Below are positions 17,944 to 19,236 of a DNA stretch of 64,000 nt, piece after piece. This DNA comes from Gemmatimonadaceae bacterium. Lineage in GTDB: Bacteria; Gemmatimonadota; Gemmatimonadetes; Gemmatimonadales; Gemmatimonadaceae. Every line of letters starts with the position of its first letter. Position 1 is the first letter of the stretch. The stretch covers positions 1-64,000 of the forward strand of contig JADZAN010000023.1 of NCBI GenBank assembly GCA_020852815.1. Reading direction: 5' to 3'. The notes beneath the pieces were generated by a model that was not told the origin of the DNA, searched no databases, and was given only the letters and a program-made list of their open reading frames with translations. Position numbers and translations under genes: made by a program.

Positions 17944-18330
17944 ATGAAGATCGAACACGTGGCGCTGTGGACGCACGACCTCGAGCAGTCGCGCGCCTTC
18001 TACCAGACGTTGTTCGGTGCGGTCGCCAACGAGCGGTACGAATCGGCGCGCGTGCGAGGCTTCGCGTCGTACTTCCTGACTATTCCAGGCGGCGAGACTC
18101 GGCTCGAGCTCATGCAACTGCCGCAGCTCTCGCCCATGGCGTTGCCGCCGGCACTCGGCTACGCGCACCTCGCCATCTCGGTGGGGTCGCGCGAGAAGGT
18201 CGATGCGCTCGTCGAGCTGGCGCGCTCGGCGGGGGTGCCGATTCGCTCGGAGGCGCGGGTGACGGGGGATGGGTATTACGAGGCGGTGTTGGAGGATCCG
18301 GATGGGAATCCGGTGGAGGTGACGGCGTAG
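17944..18330 (+). CDS. VOC (glyoxalase/bleomycin-resistance fold) protein
   Basis: A 128-residue single-module VOC protein. The four metal-ligand positions of glyoxalase I-type enzymes are all filled: His near residue 5 (KIEHVALW), Glu in TRLELMQLP, His in GYAHLAISV and Glu in NPVEVTA. The sequence EDPDGNPVEV is the usual last strand. Such proteins act as lactoylglutathione lyases, epimerases or dioxygenases; the sequence alone does not decide. The ATG is only four bases after the GH13 stop, so it is probably co-transcribed with the maltodextrin genes, although a link in function is not obvious. Confidence 0.85.
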   Translation: MKIEHVALWTHDLEQSRAFYQTLFGAVANERYESARVRGFASYFLTIPGGETRLELMQLPQLSPMALPPALGYAHLAISVGSREKVDALVELARSAGVPIRSEARVTGDGYYEAVLEDPDGNPVEVTA

Positions 18331-18469
18331 CGTGGCCGGCGGCCGCGGGGGCGCAAGGGAGTTCGTTTCACACGAAGACACGGAGACACGAAGGGAGCGC
18401 GCGGTGGTTGGGGGGCTTCGCGGCTTCTCTTGATGGAACTGACGGTCAAACGGTACAAGAGGGACTCGT

Positions 18470-19087
18470 ATGCATCCGATGTACTTGCAGGAGGTTGAGC
18501 GGGGGGCGGGGGCGGGGACGTATGCGGATCGGATTGCGCTCATGCGCGCGCAGGGGAAGCCGATGCCGCAGATCTGGCACCTGTTCGCCTACAAGCCCGA
18601 TCGCACCGACTTCCTGGCGCACTTCACGCAAGGGGTGATGCGTGGGGCGTCGCCGTTGTCGGCGGGGCTGCGCGAGTTGATCGCGGCGCTCACCTCCAGG
18701 CGCAACGACTGCGACTTCTGAACGGGGTCGCACGCCGCGGTCGCGGCGACGTTGCTGGGGAACCGGGCGCTGGTGGACGCGGTGCTGGCCGACTATCGCA
18801 CGGCGCCGATCGACGAGTCATGGAAGGTGCTTTTCGCCTTTCTCGACACGGTGAACGCCCGCTGCGCCGAGTTGGGGCCTGCGGACATCGAGACGTGCAA
18901 GGCGGCGGGGTGGAGCGAGGAGGCGATCTATGACGCCATCACGGTCTGCGCGCTCTTCAACTTCTACAACCGCTGGATCGACGCCACGGGTGTCAGCGAC
19001 CTGGGCGAGGCGATGTACGCGCAGTCAGGGGAGCGGATGAAGGCGCACGGCTACGCGCCGCCGGGGCGCATCGTCCTCGAGAAGTAG
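18470..19087 (+). CDS. AhpD-like / carboxymuconolactone decarboxylase family protein, probable selenoprotein (in-frame UGA = Sec84)
   Basis: Two open stretches in the same frame, separated only by TGA at 18719-18721, together encode one complete 205-residue peroxidase-related CMD/AhpD-like protein. The N-terminal part ends RRNDCDF and the C-terminal part begins TGSHAAVAATLLGNRAL. Family members carry C-x-x-C-x-x-x-H; here it reads C81-D-F-UGA-T-G-S-H88, so the UGA sits exactly on the second redox cysteine. Both halves are well conserved (for instance GWSEEAIYDAITVCALFNFYNRWIDATGV), with no other lesion. A compact hairpin with a GGTC loop lies 17 nt after the UGA, as expected for a bacterial SECIS. 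AhpD-like selenoproteins with C-x-x-U are known. The alternative, a nonsense mutation, would have to hit precisely this codon. The start ATG has AGAGGGA upstream. Confidence 0.82.
18733..18748 (+). promoter_or_regulatory. Candidate bacterial SECIS hairpin
   Basis: CGCCGC (18733-18738) pairs perfectly with GCGGCG (18743-18748) around a GGTC loop (18739-18742). The loop starts 17 nt after the in-frame TGA. The E. coli fdhF SECIS, which binds SelB, also has GGUC in its apical loop at nearly the same distance. The stem is short and the region is GC-rich, so a chance hairpin cannot be excluded. Confidence 0.6.
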
Positions 19088-19141
19088 CGAGCGCTGGCGC
19101 CGGGCACGCGCGGAGACATAGCTGTTGAAAGAGCTTTCACC

Positions 19142-19196
19142 ACGGAGGCACGGAGGACACGGAGTAGTACGCCCTCCGGGTTCTCCGTGCCTCCGT
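19142..19196. terminator. Large inverted repeat between convergent genes
   Basis: ACGGAGGCACGGAG (19142-19155) is perfectly inverted as CTCCGTGCCTCCGT (19183-19196), giving a 14-pair stem. A small palindrome TGAAAG-AG-CTTTCA lies just before it (about 19125-19139). It is placed between the convergent selenoprotein-like gene and the DUF3179 gene, so it probably works as a bidirectional terminator built from the CACGGAG repeat unit. Confidence 0.6.
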
Positions 19197-19236
19197 CTTG
19201 AAAATCGTTGATCTTCGTTAGGCGCGGGTGTCGGCC

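Follow-up and report, generated by a model that had tools for sequence, protein, structure and literature searches.

A selenocysteine (Sec)-containing AhpD-like enzyme, which would obtain its Sec through SelB-dependent insertion and act as a selenol/thiol peroxidase, is very probably encoded in the 64,000-nucleotide stretch of Gemmatimonadaceae DNA analyzed here (the window); we put the probability of this reading at about 0.93. The sequence comparisons described below give strong support to Sec decoding at UGA 84, and peroxide reduction by a Sec84/Cys81 pair would be the most likely activity, judging from the family and the residues involved. One frame runs on the forward strand from the ATG at 18470 to a TAG at 19085-19087, with a TGA at codon 84 as the sole internal stop, and the read-through product has 205 residues with 121 codons 3' of the UGA. 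A preliminary description of this DNA had already proposed an otherwise intact CMD/AhpD-family frame of this length, continuing past a UGA that falls on the second cysteine of a C-x-x-C-x3-H motif (C81-D-F-U84-T-G-S-H88 in this gene), and all of these readings were confirmed. It had also expected automated annotation to split the gene; indeed, ORF calling with Table 11 cuts the frame into ORFs of 83 and 111 codons. The features are collected in Table 1.

Table 1. Features of the predicted selenoprotein gene and its upstream neighbor (positions in the window)
Feature	Position	Strand	Remarks
AhpD-like (peroxidase-related, TIGR01926) selenoprotein gene	18470..19087	+	205 codons, UGA predicted to be read as Sec
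In-frame UGA, codon 84, predicted Sec	18719..18721	+	TGA in 105/111 and Cys in 6/111 distinct sequences
Cys81, partner of Sec84 in CxxU	18710..18712	+	Cys in 105/105 TGA sequences (TGC 79, TGT 26)
Glu69, AhpD Glu118 position in the proton relay	18674..18676	+	Invariant in alignment; Glu69-Cys81 spacing equals Glu118-Cys130 of M. tuberculosis AhpD (PMC3141380)
His88, AhpD His137 position	18731..18733	+	Invariant in alignment
bSECIS hairpin CGCCGC[GGUC]GCGGCG, 6-bp stem, +12..+27 after the UGA	18733..18748	+	Folding and comparative tests
SECIS apical loop GGUC, +18..+21	18739..18742	+	+18/+21 covariation in 105 sequences
Shine-Dalgarno-like AGAGGG, 6 nt 5' of the ATG	18458..18463	+	Putative, read from the sequence
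Glyoxalase/VOC-family gene, upstream neighbor	17944..18330	+	Profile match; beside the AhpD-like gene in one relative among the loci fetched

The read-through protein matches the Pfam CMD model (PF02627) with 37.5 bits, which is above the cut-off, and the NCBIfam model TIGR01926 ("peroxidase-related enzyme") with 96.6 bits (cut-off 81.8). Its AlphaFold2 model has a mean pLDDT of 93.7, and the solved structures that it resembles most are AhpD/peroxidase-related proteins, namely 6k40 from D. radiodurans (Z 21.2, rmsd 3.2 over 184 residues), 2prr (Z 20.8), 2oyo (20.6), 3c1l (20.4), and 2pfx (19.7). Pneumococcal AhpD and the debrominase Bmp8 (6ohi) form a second tier at Z 16.4, and M. tuberculosis AhpD follows at Z 10.3. 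In the alignment of relatives, E69, residue 84, and H88 do not vary and C81 hardly does, and the pattern E-x11-C-x-x-[C/U]-x3-H that characterizes AhpD-like proteins is located in a two-helix hairpin. The fold and the active-site layout are thus predicted to be AhpD-like. The fifth residue of the AhpD relay, a His or Tyr before the second redox residue, is replaced by Phe83 (18716-18718), and Phe was found at this position in 104 of the 105 TGA sequences. As a result, the proton relay would not be identical to that of AhpD. The His/Tyr residue is a feature of the relay studied in AhpD and is not demanded by TIGR01926; a selenol, being acidic, may have less need of a base for its deprotonation.

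The in-frame UGA is conserved far beyond the source genome. In a first set of 80 relatives' loci on genome contigs, codon 84 is TGA in 77. When the relatives' loci were pooled with those of a phylum survey (see below) and duplicates were removed, 111 distinct sequences from Gemmatimonadota, Acidobacteriota, Myxococcota, and other phyla remained, all of which have either TGA or a cysteine codon (TGC or TGT) at this position in the proportions given in Table 1. Other stops within the aligned span occur in only two sequences of the set, at alignment positions 197-198, where the gene ends. As is expected of a selenoprotein gene, the coding sequence is conserved on both sides of the UGA, and homologs with Cys in place of Sec exist, both among the 111 sequences and among the solved structures. 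The closest relative is a Gemmatimonadetes MAG (84% identity), and a genome of the same genus (G040) has the TGA as well. The named relatives comprise 64 rows from Acidobacteriota, 13 from Myxococcota (including a Myxococcus xanthus strain), further Gemmatimonadota, and single rows of other phyla. Two close homologs of a Bryobacteraceae MAG (HOG28) have Thr81 and Cys84 (TPFC) and hence no partner cysteine (L027 3001-3588 and L029 1738-2325). More distant TIGR01926-type homologs (about 39-45% identity; for example, L117-L133) also have one internal TGA followed by a similar hairpin, such as CGGCGC[GGTC]GCGTCG or CTCCGC[GGTC]GCGGAG, and there seem to be several AhpD-like Sec subfamilies in Gemmatimonadota.

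The preliminary description had made its selenoprotein reading depend on the Sec machinery of the genome and on relatives having TGA or Cys in this place rather than a decaying gene. The 5.4-Mb assembly (47 contigs) was found to encode SelA (E 1.5e-138 in the genome search), SelB (304 bits, cut-off 242), SelD (385 bits, over its cut-off), and a tRNA-Sec with the anticodon TCA (UCA) that scores 68.5 bits in Rfam and was also called by ARAGORN; this is the combination that is asked of a genome for a bacterial selenoprotein. The relatives' frames are, as outlined above, otherwise intact, and the selenoprotein reading is supported on both counts. The selD gene (L011 4602-5616), which is located directly 5' of the tRNA-Sec gene (L011 5669-5765), has an in-frame UGA of its own in the motif CAGUAAK. 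Together with the UGA of the AhpD-like gene, this makes at least two UGA-containing selenoprotein genes in the genome.

The survey of the phylum covered 249 genomes of Gemmatimonadota, among which 62 have a close homolog: 60 with the internal-TGA form and two (G116 and G140) with a stop-free form only. SelA was detected in 55 of the 60 TGA genomes, and over all 249 genomes the TGA form is associated with SelA (Fisher p 8e-4). SelB scored over the cut-off in four of the five TGA genomes without SelA (G169, G113, G130, and G146; most are fragmented drafts), so that SelA or SelB is present in 59 of the 60. The exception, with neither SelA nor an over-cut-off SelB, is G211, which is 88% complete and split into 830 contigs. 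G116 and G140 gave no match to SelA or SelB. Cys forms are not limited to Sec-free genomes, as a stop-free paralog also occurs in some genomes with the Sec machinery, such as G244. In two loci, the UGA-containing AhpD-like gene is followed directly by selA-selB in the same orientation, and selD is nearby (L134 3496-6650 in G244 and L136 4935-8787 in G080). A second AhpD-like homolog (836-1417) immediately precedes selD in L134.

The hairpin 3' of the UGA, which the preliminary description had placed 12 nt after the UGA with its GGTC loop 17 nt away, was recovered at +12 to +27 with the loop at +18 to +21. It fits the published bSECIS model, which allows loops of 3-9 nt, stems of 4-16 bp, and spacings of 16-37 nt and asks for G among the first two nucleotides of the loop and for an MFE of at most -7.5 (PMC13188914). 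Here, the GGUC loop of 4 nt is closed by a 6-bp stem at a spacing of 17 nt, and the hairpin alone has -10.8 kcal/mol. The preliminary description had suggested folding the 40 nt after the UGA as a check: positions +1 to +40 form a structure that includes the hairpin at -15.9 kcal/mol. With stretches of at least 45 nt, the MFE fold of the window moves to other structures. Since the single-sequence fold depends on length in this way, the hairpin rests on comparative evidence, and since it lies within the codons for H-A-A-V-A-A, constraint on the RNA had to be told apart from constraint on the protein.

Codons 89-93 occupy ranks 1 to 5 of synonymous bias among 95 mostly fourfold-degenerate columns; their bias is 0.85-1.24 bits per codon, and the median is 0.15. 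The complete seven-pair hairpin can form in 100 of the 105 TGA sequences, whereas a null in which synonymous codons were redrawn from each gene's own usage (500 runs) gave a mean of 9.1 and a maximum of 19. Pairs that link two third codon positions covary, including compensatory wobble-wobble changes. At the loop-closing positions +18/+21, the 105 sequences have G-C in 74, A-T in 27, G-T in three, C-T in one, and A-C in none; the two positions are concordant in 101 sequences, against a maximum of 78 after shuffling. Each of these sites changed 12-13 times on the tree, and the best tree has 12 independent pairs. When only well-supported branches are counted, five independent pairs remain, too few to reach p < 0.05; on average 4.7 of them go in the same direction, and none ever goes in the opposite one. 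Independent changes of +12/+27 are few, and one of four occurred together. Positions +19/+20 are GU in 96 sequences and GG in nine, in agreement with the published loop pattern N1-G-[G/U], in which N1 is paired to N2 (PMC13188914). When single genes were resampled synonymously, the free-energy z-scores were weak (mean z -0.52 over 78 TGA sequences; +0.1 for the window), probably owing to the high GC content of the entire coding sequence. Rfam has nothing relevant in the region. In place of the z-scores, it was the position-specific pair test that proved decisive. Both the constraint at synonymous sites and the compensatory changes bear out the SECIS-like hairpin of the preliminary description.

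These data also bear on two other explanations of the interrupted frame. If the TGA were a nonsense mutation or a sequencing error in a CMD/AhpD gene, the split of the frame by Table-11 calling would be accounted for. However, a chance mutation, which the preliminary description had likewise thought improbable, would hardly recur at the identical codon in 105 of 111 sequences that come from several phyla and whose frames are intact before and after it, in a same-genus genome as well, and next to a hairpin that is constrained at synonymous sites. The recurrence of the TGA led us to reject this explanation, whose chance of being correct is negligible. Decoding of the UGA as Cys or Trp, either by near-cognate read-through or in a reassigned code, would agree with the Cys found at codon 84 of the non-TGA homologs. 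Against it stand the tRNA-Sec(UCA), SelA, SelB, and SelD of the genome, the tracking of SelA by the TGA form across the phylum (with SelB in four of the five exceptions), and a conserved SECIS that would be superfluous if Cys or Trp were inserted. It was rejected on these grounds as very improbable.

With Sec as the preferred reading of the UGA, the following mechanism can be proposed. SelB carrying Sec-tRNA(Sec) would bind the hairpin just 3' of UGA 84, upon which the UGA would be decoded as Sec; without the SelB-bound hairpin, the ribosome would halt after 83 residues. The protein would adopt an all-helical AhpD-like fold with Sec84 in the place of AhpD Cys133 and Cys81 in that of its partner Cys130. 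The Sec84 selenolate would then likely attack a peroxide or another oxidized substrate, Cys81 would resolve the resulting selenenic acid by forming a selenenylsulfide, and a cellular thiol, presumably, would reset the enzyme. It is also conceivable, but rather unlikely, that Sec is inserted into an enzyme that is not chiefly a peroxidase and serves, for example, as a thiol-disulfide/selenenylsulfide adaptor or as a reductive dehalogenase like Bmp8. In the AhpC/AhpD system, AhpD itself has an adaptor role (PMC3141380), the AhpD-fold debrominase Bmp8 aligns with the model, the relay residue is replaced by Phe83, and there is no peroxiredoxin among the window neighbors examined. On the other hand, it is AhpD/peroxidase-related proteins that match best in sequence and in structure, and Bmp8 is clearly weaker.

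The neighboring genes in the window (alpha-amylase, glyoxalase/VOC, DUF3179, and sugar-metabolism genes) give no clue to the function. Among the loci fetched, the glyoxalase/VOC gene was found beside the AhpD-like gene in one relative only (the closest one, L012), and no operon function is therefore claimed. Dispersed CACGGAG/CACGAAG repeats were observed at 19135-19203, 18370-18393, and 983-1173 (eight matches in the window, 2.7 expected). The first of these regions is a 30-nt inverted repeat directly 3' of the AhpD-like gene; it might serve as a terminator or be a mobile repeat.

A selenium-dependent AhpD-like enzyme would be present in many bacteria of the Acidobacteriota, Myxococcota (including Myxococcus xanthus), and Gemmatimonadota, where ordinary gene calling would halve it. 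As a natural record of a bacterial SECIS, the family is unusually clean, with compensatory changes at third codon positions that include the loop-closing pair. As both Sec and Cys forms exist, the functional difference between them is directly testable.

The gene belongs to a kind that is already described. AhpD-like CxxU selenoproteins are known from the Sargasso Sea (27 sequences; PMC1088965), from the GOS survey, where AhpD-like 1 (COG2128) and AhpD-like 2 were listed (PMC2398784), and from bacterial genomes (PMC1794560), and a 2026 catalog files one under TIGR01926 (PMC13188914). The window protein shares with the catalogued proteins (PMC1088965, PMC2398784, PMC13188914) the TIGR01926 model, the CxxU motif, and a SECIS directly 3' of the UGA; the subfamily to which it belongs has the consensus RN-x-CPFU-x-x-SHAAVA with Phe before Sec. 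NF041238 (AhpD_rel_CFYUT) and NF041047 (distant AhpD homolog selenoproteins) likewise represent AhpD-type CxxU selenoproteins (PMC13188914), but the window protein scores 44.3 bits against a cut-off of 175 for the former and has no match up to E 0.1 to the latter. No description of the subfamily in Gemmatimonadota, Acidobacteriota, and Myxococcota was found in the open-licence papers searched, which is weak evidence of novelty. With the peroxidase-related structures 6k40, 2oyo, 2prr, 2pfx, and 3c1l, the protein has the fold (Z 19.7-21.2) and the E-x11-C-x2-C-x3-H layout in common, whereas these homologs have Cys instead of Sec at 21-26% identity, and 2pfx, 6k40, and 2oyo have Tyr where the window protein has Phe. 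PA0269 also has Tyr at this fifth relay position. In M. tuberculosis AhpD (1gu9/1knc), Glu118, Cys130, Cys133, and His137 correspond to E69, C81, U84, and H88 (PMC3141380), but the chain topology differs (Z about 10), Cys replaces Sec, and His132 is found in the place of Phe83. We tentatively suggest, as an idea that may well prove wrong, that the gene belongs to a subfamily of its own within TIGR01926, which occurs in soil-associated phyla and in which Sec is nearly obligate. This subfamily would have a near-fixed 16-nt SECIS, Phe in place of the relay His/Tyr, and sometimes a location next to selAB; its selenolate may have rendered the classic proton relay dispensable, and the gene may be one of the main reasons why some of these bacteria retain the Sec system.
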